Shown: one piece after another, positions 9,333 to 64,000 of the stretch
Numbering within the stretch: the stretch's first letter is position 1
Layout of the letters: each line of letters starts with the position of its first letter
NCBI GenBank assembly: GCA_022729575.1
Contig: DZAL01000005.1
Coordinates: 1 to 64,000, forward strand
From: Thiomargarita sp.
GTDB taxonomy: Bacteria; Pseudomonadota; Gammaproteobacteria; Beggiatoales; Beggiatoaceae
Length of the DNA: 64,000 nt
Direction of reading: 5' to 3'
The notes under the pieces: model-generated
What the model saw: only the letters and a program-made list of their open reading frames with translations
Told to the model about the DNA's origin: nothing
The model's database searches: none
Translations under genes and position numbers: made by a program

Positions 9333-9394
9333 TATAGTTCTCCTTTGATAAGTGGATGATTGAAAGTAAGGGACCAAGCGACGCCTTGGATTCC

Positions 9395-9731
9395 TGGGGA
9401 GACGCTAGGTTTTGTGGCAGAATTGGAAACCCGTTGACGTGGGATATAGCAACGGTTTTAAAGGCAATGCGAGTCGGGCCCGCTTGACTCAAGTGGGAGG
9501 TTAACTCGTTTTGGAAAGGAGTTGGTTCAGAAGGAGGTAAAAGTGTATTTTTTGGTTGATAGTTGTTTGTTGCTATGCTATACTGTTGTGTTGTGTTGTG
9601 TTGTGTTGTGTTGTGTTGTGTTGTGTTGTGTTGTGTGTGGGATTATTAATTTCAAAAATCCCTGTTTCGTTCGCTATAAAAATTATCACTGCAATGACTG
9701 CAACAATCAGAATAAATTTTGGCGTTGGCAT
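9395..9731 (-). pseudogene. 5-prime remnant of the 629-residue gene
   Basis: Reading from the ATG at 9731 gives MPTPKFILIVAVIAV, matching the first residues of the gene at 49977-51866 (MLTPKFTLIIAVIAI). Similarity continues through NETGIFE and, in another frame, SQAG, then fades near 9400. The frame is broken by a pentanucleotide expansion at 9586-9635. The rest of the gene is absent. Upstream bases 9745-9835 also match the region 5-prime of the intact gene. Confidence 0.75.
9586..9635. repeat. Pentanucleotide microsatellite (TTGTG)10
   Basis: Ten perfect tandem TTGTG units. The intact homologue near 51760 has only TTGTATTGTA here. On the coding (minus) strand the unit is CACAA. Ten units put the downstream sequence out of frame, giving a TAG a few codons later. 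Confidence 0.95.
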
Positions 9732-19856: not shown

Positions 19857-20290
19857 CTACAAATGCCGTTCCTGATACCTCACCAACGCCAGCAACTGGT
19901 CCACCGTTTTCAACCCCTTTAAGGTCCCTGCTAAACTGGTATTGACGAGTTTCGTTCCCCGCAGGCCACCATTGTCCAGACCGGCTAGATAACAGACGTT
20001 ACCCTTTTCACCCGTATCAATACTCATCGCAATTTGCTGGCCTGCCGCGTTGCTGATGGTTAAACGCACGTCGCCGTCTTTAAACCTGGCACTTTGGCCA
20101 GTTTGTACCATCCCGTAATCCCAGCAAAATAGCCAGACCGCTTTCATCTCGTCTAATTGGCTAATCTGCAAATTTCTTCCTTCTCACCGCCGTCCTCACC
20201 GACTCCTTCATCCTTATTGAGGCACCAGTAAGGAAAGTTTTCTAATTGTCCTAATTGGGCAAAATAAACTAGACCCCGTTGACCGGTTTT
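19857..20290 (-). pseudogene. Frameshifted, 5-prime-truncated TerD-like gene
   Basis: Bases 19857-20171 encode the C-terminal half of the TerD-like protein at 41498 (WLFCWDYGMVQTGQ, GNVCYLAGLDN, ALVRYQERH). Upstream the match continues in another frame (GQRGLVYFAQLGQLENFPYW, CLNKDEGVGEDGGE) after loss of one T in a TTTT run near 20175. The first 40 codons are missing. Confidence 0.8.
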
Positions 20291-20344
20291 GGTTTCATAA
20301 GATGACCTCACTATTAACTCGCACCAACGTGGGAGTACAGCAGA

Positions 20345-37014: not shown

Positions 37015-37390
37015 TTACTCCATCCCACTGGCATTCATCAACCACCACGCCGATACATTTTTTTGCCAAGCCGTTTGGTCTGGTGGTCTGAATCCTGTAA
37101 CGACCATAGATTCCGCCTCCTCTCCTAACTGTTCTAACTTCGCCCCCGTTGCTTGATTAGCACTGTTGGCAAAAAACTGATTGACTAACTGGAGAGAGTC
37201 TTTCAGATGACTTCGTTGAAAACGAATGACCACGGTGGCATCGCGACGTATAAACAATCGTGGTTCTAATCCCACGGCTTTGAAACTTTGTCGATTCAAA
37301 ACGGGATTCGCTTTTTTAAACAAAAATTGCGTGACCGGGGTGATGTTAAAGTTTTGTGGTTCAACGATGTGTGCTTTAGCCAATTATTGC
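37015..37390 (-). pseudogene. 3-prime remnant of the 629-residue gene
   Basis: It encodes the last 122 residues of the 49977-51866 protein almost unchanged (KAHIVEPQNFNITPVTQFLF ... SAWWLMNASGME). It is cut off upstream near 37390 and joined to R1-type bases. Confidence 0.85.
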
Positions 37391-37449
37391 AATTTGGTAA
37401 ATAAGTCGCACTCTACGCTGGCTGGTTAACCAGTTACCACCAGTTCTTT

Positions 37450-38497: not shown

Positions 38498-38805
38498 ACG
38501 AATGCCGTTCCTGATACCTCACCAACGCCAGCAACTGGTCAACCGTTTTCAAGCCCTTTAAGATCCCTGCTAAATAGGTATTGACGAGTTTCGTTCCCCA
38601 GGCACCACTATTGTCCAGACAAGCTAGATAACAGACGTTACCCTTTTCACCCGTATCAATGCTCATCGCAATTTGCTGGCCCGCCGCGTTGCTGAGGGTT
38701 AAACGCACATCGCGGTCTTTAAATCGGGCACTTTGGCCAGTTTGTACCTTCCCGTAATCCCAGCAAAATAGCCAGACGGCTTTCATCTCGTTTAACTCGA
38801 CTCCC
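38496..38805 (-). pseudogene. 5-prime-truncated TerD-like gene
   Basis: C-terminal half of the 41498 TerD-like protein (EMKAVWLFCWDYGKVQTGQS, NVCYLACLDNS, ALVRYQERHS). The match ends at 38805, where a palindromic GC-rich element (about 38815-38945, CCTCTCCCAGCGGGGGG ... CCCGCTGGGAGGG) begins. Confidence 0.8.
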
Positions 38806-41402: not shown

Positions 41403-41500
41403 AGTAGGGTGCGTCCCACGCACCTTTCTCAACTCCGCCCGTTTCACCAATTCTGGGGAAGTTGATTGGCGTTTGAGAAGGGTGCGTGGGACGCACCCTA
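41403..41500. repeat. R1 dispersed repeat
   Basis: R1 copy directly after the TerD-like gene stop. All three TerD-like copies end at R1. Confidence 0.85.
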
Positions 41501-42046
41501 CGAATGCCGTTCCTGATACCTCACCAACGCCAGCAACTGGTCCACCGTTTTCAAGCCCTTCAAAGTCCCTGCCAAACTGATATTAATGAGTTTCGTTCCC
41601 CCCGGGCCACTATTGTCCAGACAAGCTAGATAACAGACGTTACCCGTTTCACCCGTATCAATACTCATCGCAATTTGCTGGCCTGCTGCGTTACTAAGGG
41701 TTAAACGCACATCGCTGTCTTTAAACCGGGCACTTTGGCCAGTTTGTACTTTCCCATAATCCCAGCAAAATAGCCAGACCGCTTTCATCTCGTCGAACTG
41801 GCTAATCTGCAAAATTTCTTCATTCTCACCGCCTTCCTCACCGATTCCTTCATCTTTATTGAGGCACAAGTAAGGGAAGTTATCTAAGTGGCCTAAGTCG
41901 GCAAAATAGACTAGGCCCCGTTGACCGGTTTTGGTCTGATAAGCGGCAGCTAAATCAAAGTCAACGGCGGTGGTCCATTTCATAGAAATGGTGAGTTGTT
42001 TAGCGTCTATGAAGGTATCTTGACCTTTTTGTTTGAGTTGTTCCAT
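41498..42046 (-). CDS. TerD-like protein
   Basis: A 182-residue protein with the TerD fold signature: TTAVDFDLAAAYQTKTGQ, GLVYFADLG, KDEGIGEEGGENEEI, AVWLFCWDYGKV and VRLTLSNAAGQQIAMSI. TerD-family domains bind calcium and occur in tellurite-resistance and phage-conflict operons. It closes a four-gene set with the GTPase upstream (82-base gap). Two broken copies exist at 19857 and 38496. Intact. Confidence 0.8.
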   Translation of the reverse strand: MEQLKQKGQDTFIDAKQLTISMKWTTAVDFDLAAAYQTKTGQRGLVYFADLGHLDNFPYLCLNKDEGIGEEGGENEEILQISQFDEMKAVWLFCWDYGKVQTGQSARFKDSDVRLTLSNAAGQQIAMSIDTGETGNVCYLACLDNSGPGGTKLINISLAGTLKGLKTVDQLLALVRYQERHS

Positions 42047-42127
42047 TTTAAATGACCTCGTTATTCGTTACTGGAGTCCAAATCTTCAGATTTGGATCCC
42101 AGCGTTTAGAGAATTGAGAGTTGTTTC

Positions 42128-43055
42128 TCAAGGGCACTTGGCGATGGTCTTGACTTCGCCCACAAACTTCAGGACTGCTTCGGTCATCTTTTTAACATCA
42201 GCATCATCTACTTTGTCTTCCTTTTTGTCTTCCTTCATTTCATAGTCGATGCCTGCTTGAATGACTTCTTGTTCTTTAGTCAACAGACACAGCTTCTCTA
42301 ACACCGTGGCCTCTAACTTAGACTCTATCACCTTGAGTTCCTTGGCTACATCGACCACCTTTGACAAGGACTTGACCCGTAGCACATCATTCTTGCTAAA
42401 AAAGGGTAGAGTCTTCCATTCTGGTTCTTGCAGGGGTAGAGTCGTTGTTTTTTTTTGCTTCTTCTGCTACTCGACAGGCCAGTCTCAAGTAGGGACGCTT
42501 GCCACTCTCAAAACTACATGGAGTATCCAGCGCATTGGAACTGTTGGCCACGAAAGCGTCAAACAGTTTTCTTAGGGTGTCTCGTTTAGCCACGATGTCA
42601 CTCAAACCACTGACACCCGCAAAGTCGGTAAAACCCTTTTCCAACCAACAACGGTCTGAAGAAGACTCACGACAGTCTGAAGAAGACACAAACATGAGTG
42701 ACACCGAGAGATTTCCTTTTTGTTTGGTACTCCGTAAATCAGCTACAGCCTGCTTTATATCATCCTTGGGCTGTAGTACACGCAATTCACTACACTCTGC
42801 AGTTAAAGGTGGCGAAGGTTTGTCAGTAGAGAGACTCGGTTCTGGACAATCCTCCTCCGTCTCCGTTTTGTTGGGACCCAGACCGGGAACTTCCATTCCC
42901 TTTAAGTTTAAGAGAGTCAAAAACTTCGCATAGTGATTAGGTGGTAGTTCTTTTTTAAACGGCCACCAGTCCATTTGCGACGACAATTGCGCCACTAAAA
43001 TAATTGCTACGATACTCATGGAAAACCCCCATATTACTTTGTGTTTTTTAGACAT
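42128..43055 (-). CDS. Membrane-anchored protein with A9 frameshift
   Basis: The first frame (43055 to 42396) gives an N-terminal membrane segment (VIWGFSMSIVAIILVAQL), a Pro-rich linker and CWLEKGFTDFAGVSGLSDIV. It then slips at a run of nine A (about 42448-42456) and ends shortly after. With eight A the frame runs on: LPLQEPEWKTLPFFSKNDVL, RVKSLSKVVDVAKELKVIES, to the stop at 42128. The second frame has no convincing start. Either one gene of about 309 residues carries a frameshift, or the A9 tract permits slippage. Family unknown. It overlaps the preceding gene by 22 bases. Confidence 0.65.
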
Positions 43056-44155
43056 GATGTCTCCTTGTTAAGTTGTTGAATGAAATCTAGGAGAAGTTTT
43101 ACCACTTCCTCTGCTTTATTCTTTTTAAAAACAGCAGAAAAATTTGTTCTCTTATTCTCAAATTGTTGGCACCAATCTGAGGGTACTGAAATTTTTTGGA
43201 CATCAACGATGAAATCGTTCACTTTCTCGAACTGGTTTAACTTTTTCAGCATCTCACATACAAGTGACATTTCACCTGTGGTTATGGGTGACCTAGCAAT
43301 GTCAGATTTGCACCACTCTACACCTGAAATTTTTTGTCGGAGGTTGGTGAACATTTCTTGCAGATGTTTTCCTTCTGCCCCTTCTGTGTCACTTGACGGT
43401 CTTGATGTTGGTAAGCTCTTTTTGCTTGGATTAGGAGACTCCCCCTTACCCGAATTTATTGGGGTGATAGTCCTTGGCGGTTGTTCATTGTCATTTTGAC
43501 AGATTACATGAGTTTGCGAACACTGAGAATAACAACAAAGTTCTAGGATAGAGTCTCTCGAACTTCCGATTGCCATCTGAGTGTCTGGTGTGGTTGTCTG
43601 ACAATCAGAACTCTTCGAACCCAGCCCGCTACCTATCCAAATACCCAGTCCCAACACCAGCAAAATCCCAATAACCCCTCCAGCCAACTTTAATTGACTG
43701 GGATGCCACTTCCGGGCGGGCGGTTTCTTAACTGGCGGTATAGCCTTTTTGACTCTTAGCAAGTCGCTAATAGCTTTTTCCCATTCCACCAATTCCGCAC
43801 GTTCTACCAAAAGCGATTGCCCCGCCCGTTCCCAATCAATCTTCTCTGTCACTAGCACCGCCAACTCAGCCAACCGTTGTTCCAGTTGCGCCATAATTTG
43901 TTGACGTTGAGTGCCAGAGAGTTTGTTAACCTCAATTCCCGTTAACACCAAAATTTCATCGCCCGTGCGCCCGGAGACCGATTGTGCAGTTTTCACACTG
44001 ACAGCCAGATAGTCTTCTCCTTGCAGGTTACGACGGGCCGCTGCCACCACTTTAGCAACCTCACTCTCTGAGAGGTCGCCCGTGGAGGAGACGATAAAAC
44101 GATGGTTCCACTTGTCTGCGCGTGGAGTTTCGGCAACTAATTGGATTCTACTCAT
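43034..44155 (-). CDS. Single-pass membrane protein of GTPase operon
   Basis: A 373-residue protein. A cytoplasmic N-terminal domain of about 150 residues (MSRIQLVAETPRADKWNHRF, LSESEVAKVVAAARRN, GDEILVLTGIEV) is followed by one membrane segment (LAGGVIGILLVLGLGIWIGS, about 156-175). A Cys-rich Ser/Pro linker and an external helical domain with several cysteines come last (GVEWCKSDIARSPITTGEMS). It starts one base after the GTPase gene ends. No family recognised. Its topology suggests it links the GTPase to the periplasm. Confidence 0.65.
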   Translation of the reverse strand: MSRIQLVAETPRADKWNHRFIVSSTGDLSESEVAKVVAAARRNLQGEDYLAVSVKTAQSVSGRTGDEILVLTGIEVNKLSGTQRQQIMAQLEQRLAELAVLVTEKIDWERAGQSLLVERAELVEWEKAISDLLRVKKAIPPVKKPPARKWHPSQLKLAGGVIGILLVLGLGIWIGSGLGSKSSDCQTTTPDTQMAIGSSRDSILELCCYSQCSQTHVICQNDNEQPPRTITPINSGKGESPNPSKKSLPTSRPSSDTEGAEGKHLQEMFTNLRQKISGVEWCKSDIARSPITTGEMSLVCEMLKKLNQFEKVNDFIVDVQKISVPSDWCQQFENKRTNFSAVFKKNKAEEVVKLLLDFIQQLNKETSCLKNTK

Positions 44156-46654
44156 TTATCTGACCTCATGCCATTCAGGTAACTCTGGTGGACTGGGATA
44201 GCCGTCAAGCCCTAGATAGACTGTACCTGCTTTTTTAGCATTGTCACTCTTTAGAAGAGGCACAGAGTATCCAGAGATCAATTCAGAAACCCCTTTGGTT
44301 ACAGAAGCCTCGTAAACGTCATTGGAAAACCAGCCAACATCAACGATAATAAAACTAATAAGTACCTTATCAGAAGGTTTTGCGGACCGAGAATCACTGG
44401 ACAGCTTTCCCGTGTGCGAGTTGCGATCAGCCCTAATTTTTTCATCCTTAAAGACTAAATCATCATTCCAACCAGCGTAAACACGAACTTCAGAACCATT
44501 TATATCCCAGTCAATGTTAAATACCAATTGGATGTTAACCGTAGCATTTGGGTCTATCTCACCCAAATACTTCTTGTAAGCCGCCACTTGACTTTCCATG
44601 GTTTTCAGTGGCGCATATTGCAAATACTTATCAAAATGTTCCACATCGAGGTATTTTTTGGCCGCCTCATACAAGTCTTGGTCTTGTCTGCCAAGGATTT
44701 GCTGTTGCAACTCCGCCATTTTGGCTTGACCTTCGCCAGATTGTAAATCGGGCGGAAACTGCGCATAACTCTTGAGGAGTTGATTGGCTTCATCCAAACG
44801 GTTATCTTTCAAATTTTGCGTCACTTTCTCCGCGATTCCCTGAACCACCGTTGTTCTGAAGGTCTCCTTTAACGGAGTCACCTGGTCATCCGCTGGACGA
44901 TTATTCAGCGATTGGGCCGCTTCCAAGAAATTCCCAGACTGCATATTGTTCTGGTAACCTGTAACAAACTGTTGCCAATCCCGTTGCTTGGCCACTTGTA
45001 CCACTTGGGTTGACAATTGCTGTTCCAAAGCAATTCTTTGGCTACGCAATTCCTCCGTTTCAGCATGAAAATGCTTAGGTAACTTGCGTAATTCAGTTAG
45101 AAGTTGGTTGAGTTTCTCAGGGTCTTGCATGTTCTCTTGCACACGACTAGCCACCTCATGGAAAGCCGCTTCATTTTCCTGTTGCTTCTGCTGAAAATCG
45201 CCACGTAACTTGAGGTCCCGTGCCTCTAAAGCGTGCGGTCCATAAGGATAGTATTGCAAGTATTCCGTAGCGGGGGCAATAGCAGTCTGTAAGCTGATGG
45301 CCTGTGCTTTAGTGATTATTTCCCACAAGACCTTTTCGCGACGAAGTTGTAATTCGGTCAACATCTGTTGAGACTGGTCCCGACTTAAAAAGGTTCGATA
45401 CGACACCACATGCCGAAAATAAGGGGCTTTGACATAACTAAGTAACCAGTCCTCGGCGCGTTTCAGTGATTCATCGTTTGCCTGTGGATTGGTTGAGGTC
45501 ACCGAGTGCTGGCGATATTGAATAAAATCCATAGTCGCTTCCACTCCCAACCACATCACCCCGATGAAAACACCAGTCCCAATCCAACGGAAAGTTTCCG
45601 TCCGTTGACATTGCCATAGGACCGCTTTAACCTGCTTAGTTTCCTCGGAACCGACAGGGAAGCGGTTTAATAATTCTGCACCCTCTTGTTTACAGCGTCT
45701 CAAATTCTTCAGGGCGAGGTTCTGATAGCGTTGCAAATCAATGGCATCGCGCCGTTGGGCTATCCAAATAAACGCATCTTCTAATCCAAAAGACTGTAGA
45801 GGCACTGTTTGCAGAGGACGTTCCACCACCTCGCCATTCTCCAGTCGCAAAAATTGACTGGGGCCTAACGCACTGACCGGAAATTCCTTAAAATTGCCCT
45901 CGGTCACGGAAGAATGCAACACATCACGGAGTCCCCGATGCGGGGGCGAAGGACTAGAATTGAGAAAATCTTCCAACTTGTGGTGTTCGTCAGCAGGACT
46001 GTGGAAATCTATCTGACTGTATCTATCCCACTTATTGACCAGCAACGCCACGGGCACATCCAAGGCCGCGCCTTCTTGTTTTTCGCCGCGTAACAAGGTG
46101 AAGGACTGACGTAAATCATACAAGTCCTTATGCGCTTGTCTATCCCGAGTCTTTTGCGACCCTTGGTGATGACCTAACATATCCCGATAAGGTGCTTCTG
46201 CAAGCACTAAAATGCCATCCATTTCCGCAAAGCGGTGCCGCAGATTTTGGGCAATTTCAGAACTACTGAGGGTTGGATTAATCAATTCACCTGAATAGTC
46301 CACCAATTCAATCCAGAAGGACTGATGAGTGGCGATGGTGAAATCATAATCAAACATGAAATGTTCCTCGCCCGTTGGATTCGGAGGCGGAACATCTCCT
46401 TGAGACAGATTCCGAGTGGCTTGTTCCATCCACTCTTTATTGCGCTGTAAAGTTACCGCATGTTCATCGGGCTGGTTTTTCTTACCTTTGGTAACGGGCA
46501 CCTCAATGGGCCGCCAAGTACAGGTATGTCCCAATGGATGCGAGTGACGCGGCATAGCCAAGGCGGCCAGCACACAAGTTTTACCAGAGGCCGACAGTCC
46601 ATAGACCGCTAGACGATAGACCTTTTTAGGTTTTTTGGATTTGTTATGGTTCAT
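44156..46654 (-). CDS. Membrane-anchored P-loop GTPase
   Basis: An 832-residue protein. The GTPase domain has Walker A GLSASGKT (19-26), a switch-II-like ELVDYSGE (116-123), the guanine-specificity motif NKWD (207-210) and FPVSALG (258-264) as G5. One membrane segment lies at 356-375 (RWIGTGVFIGVMWLGVEATM). A long helical region follows (about 400-680, with EQQLSTQVVQVAKQRDWQQF). The end is a beta-rich domain (VNIQLVFNIDWDINGSEVRV). It resembles TRAFAC-class GTPases reported in bacterial conflict systems (double-GTPase types), by memory only. It heads the operon with two membrane proteins and TerD. Confidence 0.8.
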   Translation of the reverse strand: MNHNKSKKPKKVYRLAVYGLSASGKTCVLAALAMPRHSHPLGHTCTWRPIEVPVTKGKKNQPDEHAVTLQRNKEWMEQATRNLSQGDVPPPNPTGEEHFMFDYDFTIATHQSFWIELVDYSGELINPTLSSSEIAQNLRHRFAEMDGILVLAEAPYRDMLGHHQGSQKTRDRQAHKDLYDLRQSFTLLRGEKQEGAALDVPVALLVNKWDRYSQIDFHSPADEHHKLEDFLNSSPSPPHRGLRDVLHSSVTEGNFKEFPVSALGPSQFLRLENGEVVERPLQTVPLQSFGLEDAFIWIAQRRDAIDLQRYQNLALKNLRRCKQEGAELLNRFPVGSEETKQVKAVLWQCQRTETFRWIGTGVFIGVMWLGVEATMDFIQYRQHSVTSTNPQANDESLKRAEDWLLSYVKAPYFRHVVSYRTFLSRDQSQQMLTELQLRREKVLWEIITKAQAISLQTAIAPATEYLQYYPYGPHALEARDLKLRGDFQQKQQENEAAFHEVASRVQENMQDPEKLNQLLTELRKLPKHFHAETEELRSQRIALEQQLSTQVVQVAKQRDWQQFVTGYQNNMQSGNFLEAAQSLNNRPADDQVTPLKETFRTTVVQGIAEKVTQNLKDNRLDEANQLLKSYAQFPPDLQSGEGQAKMAELQQQILGRQDQDLYEAAKKYLDVEHFDKYLQYAPLKTMESQVAAYKKYLGEIDPNATVNIQLVFNIDWDINGSEVRVYAGWNDDLVFKDEKIRADRNSHTGKLSSDSRSAKPSDKVLISFIIVDVGWFSNDVYEASVTKGVSELISGYSVPLLKSDNAKKAGTVYLGLDGYPSPPELPEWHEVR

Positions 46655-46787: not shown

Positions 46788-47141
46788 CTATTCCAGTTTT
46801 CGCCACACGCCCTGAACTACATCCCTCATTACCACTAATAAACCAGTCCACTCATCAACCGTAAACTGAGTCATACCGTGCATGACCTTTTGATGAATTT
46901 GATGCCGATTAGGTCGTTTCAAACGTACAATCAGAATCCCGTAATGTGACTCTTCACGGTGGTGAGTAAAGCCCTTATCCGTGGTAATTAGCAATCGTTT
47001 CTCACGTTGTGCAATTTGCCAAAGCGTTTCATCTTCCGAACCTTCTATTGCCGTACCACGAATATCTAGCACCTCATGTCCTAACTGACGCAATGCCTTA
47101 ACGGTCATCAAAGGAATATTTTCGTCCACTAAAATTTTCAT
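46788..47141 (-). CDS. DUF5615 PIN-like toxin
   Basis: A 117-residue PIN-like protein of the DUF5615 type: KILVDENIPLMTVKALRQLG, DETLWQIAQREKRLLITTDK and GILIVRLKRPN are near-consensus. The acids (D6, E7, D near 60) are in place. It overlaps the DUF433 antitoxin stop by four bases. Intact. Confidence 0.9.
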   Translation of the reverse strand: MKILVDENIPLMTVKALRQLGHEVLDIRGTAIEGSEDETLWQIAQREKRLLITTDKGFTHHREESHYGILIVRLKRPNRHQIHQKVMHGMTQFTVDEWTGLLVVMRDVVQGVWRKLE

Positions 47142-47374
47142 GCGGGAACACTCATCGGTTCAAGAAACACGATTTGTTCTTCAGCCAGGGAAGCCGCATA
47201 GTCAAGTGCTGCCAAAATATCAGCACGTTCTAAGGACGGATATTCTTCCAATAAGTCTTCCAGACGGTCACCATTGGCCAGCATTCTGACGATTTGATGA
47301 ACCGGCAGGCGAGTGCCTTTAATGCAAGCCTGGCCATGACATACCTTGGGATTAATAGAAATACGTGAGTGCAT
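47138..47374 (-). CDS. DUF433 antitoxin
   Basis: A 78-residue DUF433 protein from the ATG at 47374 (AGGAGAAATTC site): RISINPKVCHGQACIKGTRL, PVHQIVRMLANG, SLERADILAALDYA. DUF433/DUF5615 pairs are a known toxin-antitoxin arrangement. Confidence 0.9.
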   Translation of the reverse strand: MHSRISINPKVCHGQACIKGTRLPVHQIVRMLANGDRLEDLLEEYPSLERADILAALDYAASLAEEQIVFLEPMSVPA

Positions 47375-47474
47375 AAATGAATTTCTCCTAAAAGTAATTT
47401 TCTGGTGATGGAGTATCGAATTGATTCCGTACCTCCGCCTGGTTGGTAGTGAAGCAAGTCGGTTATGATTTCTC

Positions 47475-47590
47475 AAACCTGACAGGTCGTAAAGCACCTG
47501 TCAGGTTTAGCCCCCACTACCGCCTAGTCCATGTTACTCCATCCCACTCGCATTCATCAACCACCATGTCGATACATTTTTTTCTGGTGG
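47475..47590. repeat. R4 hairpin plus 3-prime tip of the 629-residue gene
   Basis: An R4-type hairpin (47475-47508) is followed by the linker and about 20 codons from the end of the 49977 gene (CTCCATCCCACTCGCATTCA). It then switches to an R3 half (to 47620). Confidence 0.75.
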
Positions 47591-47624
47591 GCAACGAAAA
47601 ACCTGTTGCACACTTTACATAGAC

Positions 47625-47828
47625 TCATTCTCCTCCCAATTCTGGCATTGGAGAATTTAACGTTGGCAACGGCTTACGATACCGGGGTGGTCGAGAGATC
47701 ACGGGGCGATTTTGTAATTGCTGTCGTGCCTTGCAATATTCCCCCAACGCCCGCACATCATAGTTGAATTGAGTAGCCAGTTCTTGGCGAATCGCATACA
47801 GTTCTTCCAAAATAGGGTCTTTCCACAT
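47625..47828 (-). CDS. MWxDP-family antitoxin partner
   Basis: A 67-residue protein: MWKDPILEELYAIRQELATQ, FNYDVRALGEYCKARQQLQN, RPVISRPPRYRKPLPTL. It starts two bases after the PIN stop. This is the best-preserved cassette of the family. Confidence 0.75.
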   Translation of the reverse strand: MWKDPILEELYAIRQELATQFNYDVRALGEYCKARQQLQNRPVISRPPRYRKPLPTLNSPMPELGGE

Positions 47829-47830
47829 AA

Positions 47831-48310
47831 TTATTCACCTCCGAGTAATTCTTCTGGGGTACAGATAATTGGAGAAACATAATTGTGGTCAGTACAGACC
47901 CTCTCTATGTCTCCACGTTTTTTGGCATGTGCCAAATGTTTACAGTTCCAAGTAAATAAGTAGTTGATACCATTCACACCCGCAATAGCAACATGTAAGG
48001 CATCTGAAAAGGCTTCCTTTGGAATAGCCGCCGTATGGATTAATCGATTTGCCAAATGATATGCCTCTGCGGATATATCAAGCGACACCATTTCTGATAA
48101 AACGGCTATTCTTCGTGCGGCTGCCAGTGAGTCGCCGCGGCCAACTTCTTCAAGGACAATCGGAGAAATGAATAGTTCAAATTCGTGACGACGGTTCTCC
48201 CACCATTCCGCTGTAATGGCTTGATGTCCTGCCACAATCAAATCTCGACTGGGTCTGGCGGTCAAATAACTAATAAAACTGGTTTCCAAATAAATCGAGG
48301 GTTTGGTCAT
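47831..48310 (-). CDS. PIN-domain toxin (YLETS subfamily)
   Basis: A 159-residue PIN protein from the ATG at 48310 and the only intact member of the subfamily: PSIYLETSFISYLTARPSRD, ISPIVLEEVGRGDS, AFSDALHVAIAGVNGINYLF, TWNCKHLAHAKKR, ICTPEELLGGE. The first acid is Glu. The upstream extension of the frame lies in the leader shared by all copies and has no ribosome site. Confidence 0.85.
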   Translation of the reverse strand: MTKPSIYLETSFISYLTARPSRDLIVAGHQAITAEWWENRRHEFELFISPIVLEEVGRGDSLAAARRIAVLSEMVSLDISAEAYHLANRLIHTAAIPKEAFSDALHVAIAGVNGINYLFTWNCKHLAHAKKRGDIERVCTDHNYVSPIICTPEELLGGE

Positions 48311-48530
48311 AGTGTCATTTAACTCCTGTTTGGGTGGTTGGTCATCTTTACAGTTTAGCAATTGGGACTTAACTTTGTCAAGCTGTGTCAACAGGTTTCA
48401 ACTGTTCATCATCAAACCTGACAGGTCTTGAAGACCTGTCAGGTTTAGCCCCCACTACCTAGTCCATGTTACTCCATCCCACTGGCATTCAGCAACCACC
48501 ATGCCGATACATTTTTTTCTGGTGGGCAAC
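48311..48530. repeat. PIN leader, R4 hairpin and 629-gene tip
   Basis: The leader (CTGTTTGGGTGGTTGGTCAT) is followed by an R4 hairpin (48414-48446) and the last codons of the 49977 gene, then an R3 half (to 48556). The whole block is repeated at 49820-50010. Confidence 0.85.
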
Positions 48531-48559
48531 GAGAAACCTATTGCCCTCCCTATATAGAC

Positions 48560-48763
48560 TCATTCTCCTCCCAATTCTGGCACTGAAGAATTTAACGTTG
48601 GCAACGGCTTACGATACCGGGGTGGTCGAGAGACCACGGGGCGATTTTGTAATCGCTGTTGTTCACGATAGTATTCCCACAAAGCTCGTAAATCGTAATT
48701 AAACTGGGCTGCCAGCTTATCACTGGCTTGACGAATTTCTTCGACAATCGGGTCATTCCACAT
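48560..48763 (-). CDS. MWxDP antitoxin, orphan
   Basis: A 67-residue protein (MWNDPIVEEIRQASDKLAAQ, FNYDLRALWEYYREQQRLQN) with an AGGAGGTTAAC site. That site is what remains of the PIN gene end (ELLGG, stop, about 48766-48781); the rest of the toxin is missing, replaced by an R5 hairpin. Confidence 0.75.
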   Translation of the reverse strand: MWNDPIVEEIRQASDKLAAQFNYDLRALWEYYREQQRLQNRPVVSRPPRYRKPLPTLNSSVPELGGE

Positions 48764-48791
48764 AGTTAACCTCCTAAAAGTTCAGTTTCTT

Positions 48792-48824
48792 AGGACTGGC
48801 AGTTCTTTAAGGACTGCTAGTCCT
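48792..48824. repeat. R5 hairpin
   Basis: AGGACTGGCAGTTCT/AGGACTGCTAGTCCT, slightly diverged from the copies at 7933 and 61503. It stands at the breakpoint of the lost PIN gene. Confidence 0.8.
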
Positions 48825-48901
48825 AACGTCCCCCGTCCATTCAGTCAAGGTAAGGGGTGCAAATGTTTCTTGGCCCCCCGACCTCTCACTCAATTCTTCT
48901 G

Positions 48902-49105
48902 TCAAGACACCACGACAAACTCCTGGTCCGCGACTTCTAAAGTGGGTGGCAGATACGGTTTAGGTGGCAACGACACCAATTTACGTCCATGCCGTTGTTC
49001 TTTTTCTCTCAAATCACGACATATTGCTGCCAGGTCATAATTAAACTTAGCCGCATACTCTTCTCGGAACTTTCTCAATTCTGCTATGATGGGGTCATCT
49101 ATCAT
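48902..49105 (-). CDS. Antitoxin partner of PIN toxin, diverged
   Basis: A 67-residue protein: MIDDPIIAELRKFREEYAAK, FNYDLAAICRDLREKEQRHG, then LVSLPPKPY. It is related to the MWxDP family and starts two bases after the PIN stop (in the corrected frame). Confidence 0.7.
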   Translation of the reverse strand: MIDDPIIAELRKFREEYAAKFNYDLAAICRDLREKEQRHGRKLVSLPPKPYLPPTLEVADQEFVVVS

Positions 49106-49107
49106 AA

Positions 49108-49588
49108 TTATTTTTCTCCTCGTAAAAGTACTTCAGGGGTACAGATAGTTGGCATGTTATAGCCATTCGCTTCGATAATTCGGCGTAGCGATTTTTGTAT
49201 GACAGGATTGACCATTATGTTTCAGATTCCAGGTCATTAAGTAATCCATGCCATGCACTGTTGCGATTGCTATATGAAGCGCATCCGTGATAGCTTTGGT
49301 CGGCAAGGCATGTTTTTGAATGAAGGTTTGGCCCAGCGTTTCGGCCACTTCATTGAGTGGTAACACGGTGAATGGACTAATCAAATCCAGGCGTTTTCTA
49401 GCCTCCTTGGCGTCACCTTCTTGAACTTCATCCCAAACCAATTCTGACACATAAAGTTCATAACTGCCAGACTCCGTCATCCACCATTCTTGGGTTATTT
49501 GTTGATGGGCCGCAATGATTAAGTCTCGACTTAGATGTGCCGTTAGGTAGCTGATAATGCTGGTGTCCAGGTAAATAAGTGGTTTCAT
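49108..49588 (-). pseudogene. PIN toxin with late frameshift
   Basis: From the ATG at 49588: KPLIYLDTSIISYLTAHLSR, VWDEVQEGDAKE, AITDALHIAIATVHGMDYLM, TWNLKH. Then one extra A (CATAATGG, about 49213) shifts the frame. The correct continuation VNPVIQKSLRRIIEANGYNM, PTICTPEVLLRGEK ends at 49108. The aberrant product differs only in the last 20 residues, so it could retain activity. Confidence 0.75.
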
Positions 49589-49685
49589 TTTTGAACTTTT
49601 CTGAGTCAATTAAAGTTAGCTGAGTATATCACAATGATAGTTAAGGTAGGGTGATTTGCACACCGACCTCTAATTCAATTCTTCA

Positions 49686-49731
49686 AAGTGGTGGGCAACG
49701 ATAAACCTGTTGTCCACCCTACATAGACTTG
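49686..49731. repeat. R3 half-repeat
   Basis: GTGGTGGGCAACGATAAACC and TGTTGTCCACCCTACATAG, at the point where the PIN fragment below is cut. Confidence 0.65.
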
Positions 49732-49818
49732 ATGTCCTGCCACAATCAAATCTCGACTGGGTCTGGCGGTCAAATAACTAATAAAACTGGTTTCCAAATA
49801 AATCGAGGGTTTGGTCAT
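49732..49818 (-). pseudogene. 5-prime PIN fragment
   Basis: The first 29 codons of the 47831 toxin (PSIYLETSFISYLTARPSRD, LIVAGHQ), identical at nearly every base, end at the R3 half. The leader upstream to 49955, including an R4 hairpin (49922-49954), is also identical, so this is a recent duplication. Confidence 0.85.
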
Positions 49819-49976
49819 AGTGTCATTTAACTCCTGTTTGGGTGGTTGGTCATCTTTACAGTTTAGCAATTGGGACTTAACTTTGTCAAGCTGTGTCAAC
49901 AGGTTTCAACTGTTCATCATCAAACCTGACAGGTCTTGAAGACCTGTCAGGTTTAGCCCCCACTACCTAGTCCATG

Positions 49977-51866
49977 TTACTCCATCCCACTCGCATTCAT
50001 CAACCACCACGCCGATATATTTTTTTGCCAGGCGGTCTGGTCTGGTGGTTTGAATCCTGTAACGACTATAGATTCCGCCTCTTCTCCCAACTGTTCCAAC
50101 TTCGCGCCCGTGGCTTGATTAGCACTGTTGGCAAAAAACTGACTGACTAACTGGAGAGAGTCTTTCAGATGACTTTGCTGAAAACGAATGACCACGGTGG
50201 CATCACGACGCATAAATAATCGTGGTTCTAATCCCACGGCTTTGAAACTTTGTCGATTCAAAATGGGACTGGCTTTTTTAAACAAAAATTGCGTGACCGG
50301 GGTGATGTTAAAGTTTTGTGGTTCAACGATGTGTGCTTTAGCAAATTGTTGCAATTTGGTAAATAAGTCGTGTTTGACCCAGGAGTTAAGCGATTGTTCC
50401 GAGGCTTTTTCGACCACCTTCTCTCCTAGTTGTTTCTCCATTAACTGTCGGGCCGTCTTTTTTACCGCCGCTTTGGCCGCTGATTTAGCGACAGTTTTGG
50501 CACTACTGGTCAAGGCAGTGGCAGCACCAAAGGTGAAAATCGTCACCGCTAAATCTCCCATATCAGCCGTCGCAAAGGCTAAATCTCCTCCTGTCACTCG
50601 ACGACCCTGGGCGAATTTGCCAATGACACTGAGTGTGTCATAGCCAGGCACGTTGCTGAGAAGACCGCCAGACTTAGGATTTAATTCGTCGTTTAAGGCT
50701 GAATCACTGAGAGAATCGTAATATTCCAACTCACTCGGATAATTAGCCCCTGCGTTGGCTAATCCTTCATAGAGTTTTGGGGTTAAGTCGGCTGGTAAGC
50801 GGAAGAATAACTGTTGAAACAAGGGTTCACGTCCCCATTCCAATAAGGCTACTAGCGTGTTGTCATCGTCATTTAACACGGCTTCAATGAAAGCTGGATG
50901 CAAGGATTTTGGATAAGCCTCGTTCCCAAATAGCACATCCGCCGGTGAATAACCTAAGCCACTTTTTACGCCCCATTGGTTTAGCAATGCTTCGCCCTGG
51001 GGTAACGCTAATAAATCCCACAAGTGTGAGTCATTGACATAAAATTCAAACGGTTGCTGACCGTGATTGACTACGCGCATGAATTTGGGCCATAATTCTT
51101 GACGAAAGGTGTAGCGAAACGATTCCTTCTCAATCATTTGACCACGAAGGTTGGCCCCTTGTTCAAATAAGAAATTGAGGAGGGAACTTAATTGTTCCTC
51201 AGATTGACCCAGAGTGTCATTTAACACTTCGGCTAACCAACGTTCATATTCTGCGGCGCCGGGATTATTGTGTGGAAATAGAAACAAGGCTTGACTGCCA
51301 ATGAGGCCGCGTCGGGCGAGTCGGCAAATCAAGTGTTTATTCGTGTCAAGGGCTTGGGCCAGGGCAATGGCTTCGTCGCGGGCCGCATGTTGCACAAACA
51401 GGCCCGTGATAACGTTGTAACAGTCGTCATTAGTAAGAGATTTGGTCAACTGGGCAGGAGTGTCTGCCAAAACCAGAAGAGCGGCAGTTTCAGGATGTTT
51501 TTCAATCCAGGGCATCCATTGCGGATGTTTTCCTAAATTTTGTAACAAATAGCGTTGCTTTTCTAGGAGTTGTGGAGAGTTTTGTTGCAGAATTTGAAAC
51601 CAGTCGGCATTGAGTACAACAACGGTTTCAGCGGCAGTAGGAGTCCAGCCCGCTTGACTCAAGTGGGAGGTTAACTCGTTTTGGAGAGGAATAGATTCAG
51701 AAGGAGGTAAAAGTGTATTTTTTGGTTGATAGTCGTTTGTTTCTATGCTATACTGTTGTATTGTATTTTCTGCGGGATTATTACCCTCAAATATTCCCGT
51801 TTCGTTAGCGACAAAAATGACTATGGCAATAACTGCAATAATTAGAGTGAATTTTGGAGTTAGCAT
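49977..51866 (-). CDS. 629-residue exported protein, unknown
   Basis: The protein has one N-terminal membrane segment (FTLIIAVIAIVIFVA), a polar linker and a large extracytoplasmic region. That region is helical in the first two-thirds (LLEKQRYLLQNLGKHPQWMP, RDEAIALAQALDTNKHLICR). A hydrophobic Ala-rich stretch follows near 445-475 (MGDLAVTIFTFGAATALTSS, AKTVAKSAAKAAVKKTARQL). It resembles polymorphic-toxin carrier proteins with a conserved final domain (ATVVIRFQQSHLKDSLQL). No family recognised. Pieces of this gene occur at 9395, 37015, 47520, 48470 and 56370, so it is the source of a scattered fragment family. Confidence 0.65.
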   Translation of the reverse strand: MLTPKFTLIIAVIAIVIFVANETGIFEGNNPAENTIQQYSIETNDYQPKNTLLPPSESIPLQNELTSHLSQAGWTPTAAETVVVLNADWFQILQQNSPQLLEKQRYLLQNLGKHPQWMPWIEKHPETAALLVLADTPAQLTKSLTNDDCYNVITGLFVQHAARDEAIALAQALDTNKHLICRLARRGLIGSQALFLFPHNNPGAAEYERWLAEVLNDTLGQSEEQLSSLLNFLFEQGANLRGQMIEKESFRYTFRQELWPKFMRVVNHGQQPFEFYVNDSHLWDLLALPQGEALLNQWGVKSGLGYSPADVLFGNEAYPKSLHPAFIEAVLNDDDNTLVALLEWGREPLFQQLFFRLPADLTPKLYEGLANAGANYPSELEYYDSLSDSALNDELNPKSGGLLSNVPGYDTLSVIGKFAQGRRVTGGDLAFATADMGDLAVTIFTFGAATALTSSAKTVAKSAAKAAVKKTARQLMEKQLGEKVVEKASEQSLNSWVKHDLFTKLQQFAKAHIVEPQNFNITPVTQFLFKKASPILNRQSFKAVGLEPRLFMRRDATVVIRFQQSHLKDSLQLVSQFFANSANQATGAKLEQLGEEAESIVVTGFKPPDQTAWQKNISAWWLMNASGME

Positions 51867-61600: not shown

Positions 61601-64000
61601 TTAGGGTCCTGTTGATGAGGACAAATCAGGGGCCAACGGCGGGGGCGAACTGGGACACTCCACCTTGAAATTCCACTCTGTACCACTATCACCTGCACAA
61701 GCGGGTGACACGATGACTTTAATTTGAGTAGAATTCCCTTCGTAACTCAACACTTTTGACTGCCAACCATTGGTGCCAACACATTCGCTGTCAAAGAGTA
61801 CCTTTCCTTCATACTCTACCGCTATACGGTCTTTTGCGGAGTAGGTCTCGTAATCAAACTGTAAAGTACCCGCCGATTTTGCCAACTCAATAATATGAGT
61901 TTCTGCTTCTATATCACCTGATTCTACTACTGTGTTGCATTCCTTTATCGTTCCTTCAGGAGTTAAGTAAAACTCCACCGGTGGTTGATTAAGGGCATCT
62001 ATGGTGACAGTTTTTGACACACACGCATAGCTGTTTTTGCAAACAGTAACAGTATATTGACCATCTGGTGGACGTTGCTGTGGTGAAATTTCAACCACTC
62101 CTTCAAGGTTAGTTTGTCCAGAAGCGAAAGATTCCCCCTCCGGACTATTTCCTTTGACGACAGTGACCCCAACTTTCTCCACCCCTTTACCGTTGACGCT
62201 GTCATACACTTTGACCAAGGCCAAATTGAGTTCATCCAAATTAAAAGCCATAAATGGTTGAACATTTTTATTTTCGCCATTAGCACTGACAACCTTACCA
62301 GTAAGATAGCGATCATATTCATCAAACACAGTTTTGATGTTATTCCCGACTTCTCTTTGCCACGCTTCCATGATGGCATCATACACATAAACTCGGGTTG
62401 TGTGAGGCATCCAATATAAGGGAGAACTTACCAGGGCATATTCTTCATCCCCCAAGCGTTTCTCATAAGGACCTCTCCAATAAGTTCGTCCATCAATGGT
62501 CGTTTTGGTCATCACATAAAACGGCATATCTTTAAGACCACGATAACGTTTGGTAGTCATCTCTGGACTCAAAGGCATTTTGGTACAAGGCGGATCCTCA
62601 AAAAATTTTGCAGTGTCCCAATAAGTATTGGATGCTTGAGGACAAGGTCGGTAAAGACGAAGTTTAAGCATTCTGCCATCTACTCTGGACCGTGCTTTGA
62701 GAGAACTGTTTAGATTTGCAGTCGCCACCCCCACTTGTAATAAAGGTTCAAGGTAGTTCGGCAACACGTACATGTTGAACGTGTTGTCATACTCATCACA
62801 CTTATCTGGTGCGGAACAAACCTTAAACACAGTGGTATCACGGTACACGCCAGGTGTTTTATGGGTCAGGAGTCCCTTCCCATATATTTTGGTGAAATCA
62901 AGATAATTCAGATTACCGTCCTTATCAAGATAGTAGTTATCCGCCCTCTGGTTCTGTTTTAAAAAGAGATACAGTATGGGGTTAGCAGAATCCACACCTC
63001 CTATTTGGTAAGTGTTGTACGTATTGCCGAACCATTTGTTACTAAGCACCTCTTTCCAGTAGTTGCAGTAGTTAATGTCCTCAAACCAGTTAACATAACC
63101 GCTGTTAGTGCAGTCTTTGCCAAGAAACGCATTGTCCACAGAACGATTTGTGGGTGGCATTTCCAGAGTGGGTAGTGTCGTCTCGGGTAAAGACCCATAT
63201 CGATAACTGTGCCAATCTACACTGGAATGCCCAAGGCTAATAATCCCGTTGAGAGGTTCTTTATCCTCTGGCTTAACCACGGCGTGATTTTCTACACTGG
63301 CAGTGAAGCCACTTATCACTAAAAAATTGTTAGAAGATTTGGCGTCATTACCAGTGGGGTATAATACTTGGTTATCCGTGTATTTAGGTAATCCAGGTAG
63401 CCCATAGGTACCTAAGATATAGTTGCCAAACTCGCCGGACACAGAAAGATAACGCACTGCCTCAAGCTTTGGAACATAATGACTAAATTGCATCTGTCCT
63501 TGGGTATCAAGCCGTTTCATCTTCACGATGACTATATTGGGCTTGGTTATCCAATCCCATACCATTGCACCACCTTGATTCGCAGCAGAAATCATCTGAA
63601 CCACTTTAGCAGGCGTCAGTGAGGCCAAGGCATCTCCAATCACGGAAGGCAAACTTGCGTTAACCTCTTCTACACCAGCTCTCCATAACTCTAAAAGCAT
63701 GAGATGGACAATTTGAGAAGCGTTGACAAGTACCCCATCAGGACTTATACCACCCAAACTTTGGTATAAGTTCTTTACATTGTGAATCAAATTGGCCAGG
63801 GAAGTGATGGAACCAAGAAGATTTTGATAGTATTGTAGCAGGGAACCAGCATCAATCTTGGCTTTCAACATTGCTACTTTGACACAACCTACAATGTCTT
63901 TATCTCTTGCTGTACTAGGAGTACGCGAAATCTTAGGCAAATAATGGCGTAAAATGGCTTCCGCTATGTCGCTTTCCTTAAGTTCGTCGCCACCATTACA
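61601..64000 (-). CDS. Large surface protein, 5-prime end outside window
   Basis: The frame is open to the window edge (20 codons upstream of the first TTG), so the gene is partial at its start: 799 codons are seen. The N-terminal part is helical (LLGSITSLANLIHNVKNLYQ). The centre is Tyr/Asn-rich and unrecognised (YVNWFEDINYCNYW). Residues from about 590 look like a carboxypeptidase-regulatory/Ig-like repeat (KVGVTVVKGNSPEG, TNLEGVVEISPQQ). The last 90 form a beta-sandwich (TLQFDYETYSAKDRIAVEYE, GKVLFDSECVG) found at the end of many bacterial surface proteins. Adhesin or secreted enzyme cannot be decided. Confidence 0.65.
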   Translation of the reverse strand, partial: CNGGDELKESDIAEAILRHYLPKISRTPSTARDKDIVGCVKVAMLKAKIDAGSLLQYYQNLLGSITSLANLIHNVKNLYQSLGGISPDGVLVNASQIVHLMLLELWRAGVEEVNASLPSVIGDALASLTPAKVVQMISAANQGGAMVWDWITKPNIVIVKMKRLDTQGQMQFSHYVPKLEAVRYLSVSGEFGNYILGTYGLPGLPKYTDNQVLYPTGNDAKSSNNFLVISGFTASVENHAVVKPEDKEPLNGIISLGHSSVDWHSYRYGSLPETTLPTLEMPPTNRSVDNAFLGKDCTNSGYVNWFEDINYCNYWKEVLSNKWFGNTYNTYQIGGVDSANPILYLFLKQNQRADNYYLDKDGNLNYLDFTKIYGKGLLTHKTPGVYRDTTVFKVCSAPDKCDEYDNTFNMYVLPNYLEPLLQVGVATANLNSSLKARSRVDGRMLKLRLYRPCPQASNTYWDTAKFFEDPPCTKMPLSPEMTTKRYRGLKDMPFYVMTKTTIDGRTYWRGPYEKRLGDEEYALVSSPLYWMPHTTRVYVYDAIMEAWQREVGNNIKTVFDEYDRYLTGKVVSANGENKNVQPFMAFNLDELNLALVKVYDSVNGKGVEKVGVTVVKGNSPEGESFASGQTNLEGVVEISPQQRPPDGQYTVTVCKNSYACVSKTVTIDALNQPPVEFYLTPEGTIKECNTVVESGDIEAETHIIELAKSAGTLQFDYETYSAKDRIAVEYEGKVLFDSECVGTNGWQSKVLSYEGNSTQIKVIVSPACAGDSGTEWNFKVECPSSPPPLAPDLSSSTGP

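Follow-up and report, generated by a model that had tools for sequence, protein, structure and literature searches.

A divergent relative of DO-GTPases at the centre of a candidate envelope-spanning system with exchangeable outer domains

The stretch of DNA analysed here, 64,000 nucleotides of a Thiomargarita sp. contig (the window), carries a group of minus-strand genes for a membrane GTPase, two further membrane proteins and a TerD-like protein, which raises the question of whether these genes form a system of their own and what such a system may do. The sequence-only reading had described four co-directional, overlapping or tightly spaced genes, and all four ORFs are indeed present (Table 1): the GTPase and TM2 genes abut, the TAA stop of the first running straight into the ATG of the second, TM2 and TM3 share 22 nt, and a gap of 81 nt precedes Ter. 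The operon as first drawn was incomplete, since a fifth gene upstream, c2, had been missed, with about 3 kb of toxin-antitoxin genes lying between it and the GTPase. No such block separates c2 from the GTPase in L032, L033, L035 and L049. Two of the toxin-antitoxin units are preceded by copies of the 3' end of c2 (about 45 bp and a palindrome), and two segments of 299 bp are 99% identical; this looks like a tandem duplication at the end of c2, by which the block was placed inside the operon. Toxin-antitoxin genes are abundant across the window, remnants of c2 and Ter are found elsewhere in it, and the locus has been rearranged repeatedly. Scans for promoters and terminators performed no better than on shuffled sequences. 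At the far end of the window lies a very large ORF of at least 1809 aa, whose sole match is a weak one to a bacterial Ig-domain.

Table 1. Features of the window and of related loci (locations relative to the membrane are predicted)
Feature	Position	Strand	Description
GTPase	44156-46654	-	832 aa, ORF with GTPase motifs; cytosolic P-loop G domain 1-355; weak TM ~357-378; extracytoplasmic helical stalk ~380-720; C-terminal beta-rich domain ~721-832
TM2	43034-44155	-	373 aa; conserved cytosolic N domain 1-150; TM 157-175; variable outer part 176-373
TM3	42128-43055	-	Frameshifted gene, ORFs 42396-43055 (219 aa) and 42128-42385; TM 7-25, then outer domain
Ter	41498-42046	-	182 aa, TerD-superfamily protein
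c2	49977-51866	-	629 aa; directly before GTPase in most relatives; N-terminal membrane anchor/signal; large conserved body, probably periplasmic; conserved C-terminal tail
c2 tail	49980-50033		AWQKNISAWWLMN
Toxin-antitoxin-like block	46788-49967	-	DUF5615/PIN-like, DUF433, two PIN-like ORFs; between c2 and GTPase
c2 3'-end copies	47473-47638, 48412-48573, 49689-50026		
299-bp duplicates	48220-48518, 49728-50026		
Second c2 remnant	37018-37416	-	C-terminal 133 aa, 91% identical
Second Ter remnant	38499-38798	-	C-terminal 100 aa, 89% identical
Third Ter remnant	19863-20311	-	Interrupted
c2 N-terminus remnant	9394-9731	-	63-77% identical
Very large ORF	61601-64000 and beyond (L130:1602-7031)		Runs past window end
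Subtype A loci			Window, L032, L033, L034, L035, L047, L049, L050
Subtype A, parts at contig ends			L007, L010, L125, L128
Subtype B loci			L053-L062; no adjacent c2 in L054, L056, L058
Possible intermediate	L129:753-5999		Genome G015, same family
Plasmid relative	L148:7956-11382		Haliovirga abyssi plasmid pHIC

The nature of the GTPase is the first point to be settled. Its motifs are where they would be expected (GLSASGKT at residue 19, DYSGE at 119 and NKWD at 207), and the P-loop, D119, G122 and KWD are invariant across 24 homologues, nearly all of which also have the Walker B glutamate; the P-loop GTPase proposed from these motifs is thus borne out. A membrane anchor is likewise predicted: the hydrophobic segment is rather weak in the window protein (hydropathy 1.37), but the corresponding region exceeds the cut-off of 1.6 in 20 of the 24 aligned proteins. 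The pieces past the G domain, namely the membrane segment, the helical stalk and the beta-rich end, have no Pfam name, and additional stalk repeats occur in the GTPases of L034 and of subtype B (described below). As read from the sequences, then, a constant G domain of cytosolic type is joined through a predicted membrane segment to a stalk of variable repeats. Searches of phage and viral collections gave no relative of the GTPase, a plasmid collection gave one distant match, and sequence searches of the PDB returned chance matches only. One locus from the contig scan was rejected as a relative, its match being limited to a helical stretch of 66 residues.

The two membrane partners had been described as single-pass, cysteine-rich proteins. 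Each has one clear transmembrane helix preceded by positive charge, and cysteines abound in both outer parts (9 in the 197 aa of TM2, and 8 in TM3 when read across both its ORFs); the TM3 originally reported, on the other hand, is a fragment of a frameshifted gene. In L034 (genome G001, of the same genus as the window) TM3 is intact, a single ORF of 303 aa covering both window ORFs, and compared with it the window gene is split by a frame-breaking change of length near an A-run, which may be a mutation or an assembly error. The N domain of TM2 carries the motifs TPRA..NH and Q..SGR.G. In c2, the tail at the extreme end is strongly conserved in subtypes A and B, and homologues of c2 are also found away from any GTPase, in varied housekeeping contexts (L118-L124). 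The idea that c2 may be a pre-toxin TG protein of the polymorphic-toxin kind was rejected, since PF14449 does not match it even at E=10. TM2, TM3 and c2 match no Pfam family and GAP1 is not detectable, in keeping with the earlier suggestion that the combination is undescribed.

The TerD fold ascribed to the last gene was recovered by a longer route. Pfam TerD (PF02342) does not match Ter directly, yet its profile aligns co-linearly with the C-halves of TerD proteins (probability 95%, E 2e-8), and one TerD-half protein of this profile chain passes PF02342 (26.5 against 25.3 bits). By way of this chain, Ter is placed within the TerD superfamily. Acidic positions D29, D31, D65 and E77 are conserved in it, and a structure prediction run together with two window fragments gave a pLDDT of 33, which, like the 48 of TM2 alone, is too low for folds to be compared. 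The family also occurs widely in the absence of the GTPase (33 of 191 genomes), and its members adjoin TerB or a P-type cation ATPase. In three genera (L095, L098 and L102) a stand-alone Ter homologue adjoins such an ATPase, probably of the calcium type. The neighbourhood of stand-alone Ter and P-type cation ATPase suggests a link to calcium for this TerD branch.

The distribution of the genes indicates which of them belong together. The GTPase is present in 21 of the 43 genomes and 9 of the 25 genera of the window's bacterial family, most relatives being fragmented assemblies with mechanically called ORFs; outside the family, a sample of 398 genomes of the phylum gave one match, a lone GTPase of 348 aa beside housekeeping genes (L101). 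Of 21 TM2 genes longer than 80 aa, 20 lie downstream of a GTPase, the exception being L127; in L032, L007 and L125 other ORFs intervene between the two. The genes c2, GTPase and TM2 follow one another on the same strand in seven genera of the window's family, and each of the 14 family genomes that encode TM2 encodes c2 and the GTPase as well. The expected co-occurrence of the gene families is therefore strong, but it does not extend to distant genomes as had been predicted, being confined to this one family, where distances between relatives rest on family and genus labels. Subtype A has the order c2, GTPase, TM2, TM3, Ter, with 0-2 copies of TM3 per locus; some of its loci are without a separate TM3 or, at contig ends, without c2 or Ter. 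Subtype B consists of c2, a longer GTPase (~900-1080 aa) and a longer TM2 (~550-790 aa), with no Ter, while in subtype C the GTPase, which keeps its outer stalk, stands without c2, TM2 or Ter nearby. The core is therefore c2-GTPase-TM2, to which Ter and TM3 are subtype A additions. In a tree of the G domain, subtype B forms one clade and subtype C another (91/98), nested next to A; the deepest branches are insecure. This fits a loss of partners by subtype C, though the rooting is uncertain. Whether the GTPase occurs apart from its partners, which would speak against a joint system, thus receives a mixed answer: the subtype C clade stands alone and Ter is common without the GTPase, but nearly every TM2 gene follows a GTPase. 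The setting in a defence island was not upheld, as ten neighbouring proteins gave no convincing match in PADLOC; the PADLOC HMMs likewise gave no match for seven window proteins.

Variability is the most telling feature of the system. While the predicted cytosolic domain of TM2 is conserved, its extracytoplasmic parts in nearly all subtype A loci show no relation to one another, the break falling at the membrane helix. Between L049 and L050 (genus g17), TM2 is 77-100% identical, with pS of 0-0.13, up to the helix and unrelated beyond it; the GTPase (89%) and Ter (94%) of these loci are alike. Among eight subtype A outer parts compared, a match within the set exists for one only (L050, G017), namely to TM3 domains, which form a related pool; the other seven have none. 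Between G000 and G001 (genus g1), the ends of the locus are similar (c2 94%, Ter 92%, hipA 93%; dS 0.15-0.26), and identity within it falls from 85% in the G domain to 61% in the stalk and 50% in the beta-rich end, and from 69% in the inner domain of TM2 to 22% in its outer part. Silent divergence rises with this drop, which points to recombination with a divergent copy as the probable source of the segment. Recombination thus accounts for the pattern of variation, which is in itself no proof of selection. The exchange of outer domains is not universal, since subtype B in genus g17 lacks it (92-94%).

The five genes may thus be read as an envelope-spanning GTPase switch, built round a divergent DO-GTPase and equipped with exchangeable outer sensor domains, that probably serves in conflict or envelope stress, an account to which we give about even credence. 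Hydropathy and charge would place the G domain, residues 1-150 of TM2 and Ter on the cytosolic side, and the stalk, the outer parts of TM2 and TM3, and c2 beyond the inner membrane. The outer parts of TM2 and TM3 and the GTPase stalk would sense a cue from outside the cell or from the periplasm, which the inner domain of TM2 would relay to the G domain, in a job analogous to that of GAP1. The GTPase switch would next act on c2 at the membrane and change its state; in subtype A it would do the same to the TerD protein, of a putative calcium-binding type, with a calcium- or stress-linked output. The outcome would be an envelope-stress or self-limiting defensive response. Confinement to one bacterial family speaks against a switch of this kind, and the lack of a match in the defence database and the stand-alone GTPases of subtype C speak against a settled role in defence.

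The main rival is a physiological regulator of the envelope, in which the GTPase would link conditions in the periplasm with metabolism or protein quality control in the cytosol, and differences among outer domains would come from drift within lineages or from adaptation to cell envelopes of different kinds. Stand-alone GTPases often lie next to coaD-tig-clpP-clpX in divergent orientation (genera g12, g17 and g20); this conserved housekeeping location favours such a regulator, as do the P-type cation ATPase or TerB beside Ter homologues and the silence of PADLOC. The patchy presence of the GTPase within its family, the exchange of whole domains at the membrane helix within genera, the several copies in some genomes and the broken remnants around the window locus are harder to reconcile with it, and we regard it as possible rather than probable. 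A somewhat more doubtful proposal is a hypervariable recognition system, in which constant cytosolic machinery would be combined with recombined outer sensor domains for the sensing of phages or rivals or for kin recognition, with c2 as membrane effector. Equally unlikely in our view is that the system proper consists of c2, GTPase and TM2 only, Ter and TM3 having been picked up as passengers from other parts of the genome. The wide occurrence of Ter without the GTPase and its lack in subtype B are in line with capture; Ter nevertheless lies downstream in every subtype A locus whose contig continues far enough, across four genera, and in G017 TM2 and a TM3 domain form one protein. Regarding Ter as a passenger can be compatible with the envelope-spanning switch, and the weights given to these rivals are not mutually exclusive in every part.

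The kinship of the GTPase bears on a last alternative. DO-GTPases are part of conflict systems predicted from gene context (Kaur, Burroughs, Iyer and Aravind 2020, PMC7159879), and no experimental study of them besides this prediction paper was found in the literature. DO-GTPase1 is the Pfam family most often matched by the GTPase (13 of 24 members), always below the cut-off: the window protein reaches 16.4 bits (E=0.0056) against PF19975, the gathering score for PF19975/PF19993 being 27, and the best homologue reaches 26.6. Profile alignments to DO-GTPases gave probabilities of 75-96%, those to canonical ones of the same bacterial family 75-91%, and the DO-GTPase features, namely P-loop, conserved Walker B glutamate and NKxD, are all present. 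These profiles and motifs place the GTPase among the divergent relatives of DO-GTPases, in support of the suspected likeness to predicted conflict systems. Quite improbable is full membership of the described DO-GTPase/GAP1 systems, in which TM2 would be a GAP1 that has diverged to an extreme degree and whose outer domains replace FNIII repeats. The kinship and the order of GTPase then partner, as in the prediction paper, point that way, and so does a low-confidence single-sequence model of TM2 (pLDDT 48) with the order beta-beta-alpha-beta-beta-alpha, where Q..SGR.G falls between strands 3 and 4 and recalls the GQDYSGRYGN of GAP1-N2. On the other side, hhalign gave TM2 as GAP1-N a probability of 0.4%, with 1 of 40 shuffles as good, the Pfam matches listed for 17 TM2 proteins include no GAP1 (GAP1-N, -M or -C) and those listed for TM2, TM3 and c2 no FNIII-repeat or GASH partner, and a canonical HSP70/GAP1-N2 locus lies elsewhere in the same genome (L143, contig C279). 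In L145, of the same genus, DO-GTPase2 and GAP1 were verified.

Set beside known systems, the locus shares with the DO-GTPase/GAP1 systems a membrane-linked GTPase of TRAFAC type with a glutamate after Walker B (DYSGE), a conserved core with variable partners, and a partner gene directly downstream. It differs in its single GTPase, which misses the Pfam cut-off, in having no detectable GAP1, FNIII or GASH, in the fused outer stalk and beta domain, and in the new partners TM2, TM3 and c2. The features tested for membership in the GAP1 systems failed, and the system is therefore filed outside them. L129 may be an intermediate between the system and canonical DO-GTPases: it codes in the same order for a distant c2 homologue (hhalign 94%), a DO-GTPase with TM, stalk and beta domain, and a TM partner, but its GTPase clears the DO-GTPase1 and DO-GTPase2 cut-offs (48.9 and 49.2 bits against 27), the N-terminus of its partner weakly resembles GAP1-N2 (14.5 bits), and it has no Ter or TM3. 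The two-gene plasmid locus L148 likewise codes for a GTPase that has a TM and a stalk (E=9e-4, 20.7% identity, query 6-408), and the gene immediately after it for a protein laid out like TM2 with a single TM; L148, however, comes from another phylum, has no c2 or Ter, and its partner is not alignable with significance. Ter resembles the TerD (PF02342) and TerB (PF05099) systems in its superfamily and in the neighbours of its relatives, yet in the window it stands at the end of a GTPase operon, and it belongs to a branch missed by Pfam TerD. Three families without a Pfam match (TM2, TM3 and c2) and the possible intermediate L129 are thus newly supplied. In its working the system would resemble the GTPase-centric conflict systems (PMC7159879). 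A GTPase related to the DO-GTPases here continues across the predicted membrane segment into an outer stalk of its own and has partners with exchangeable outer parts, so that domain swaps would give direct access to the sensing side.
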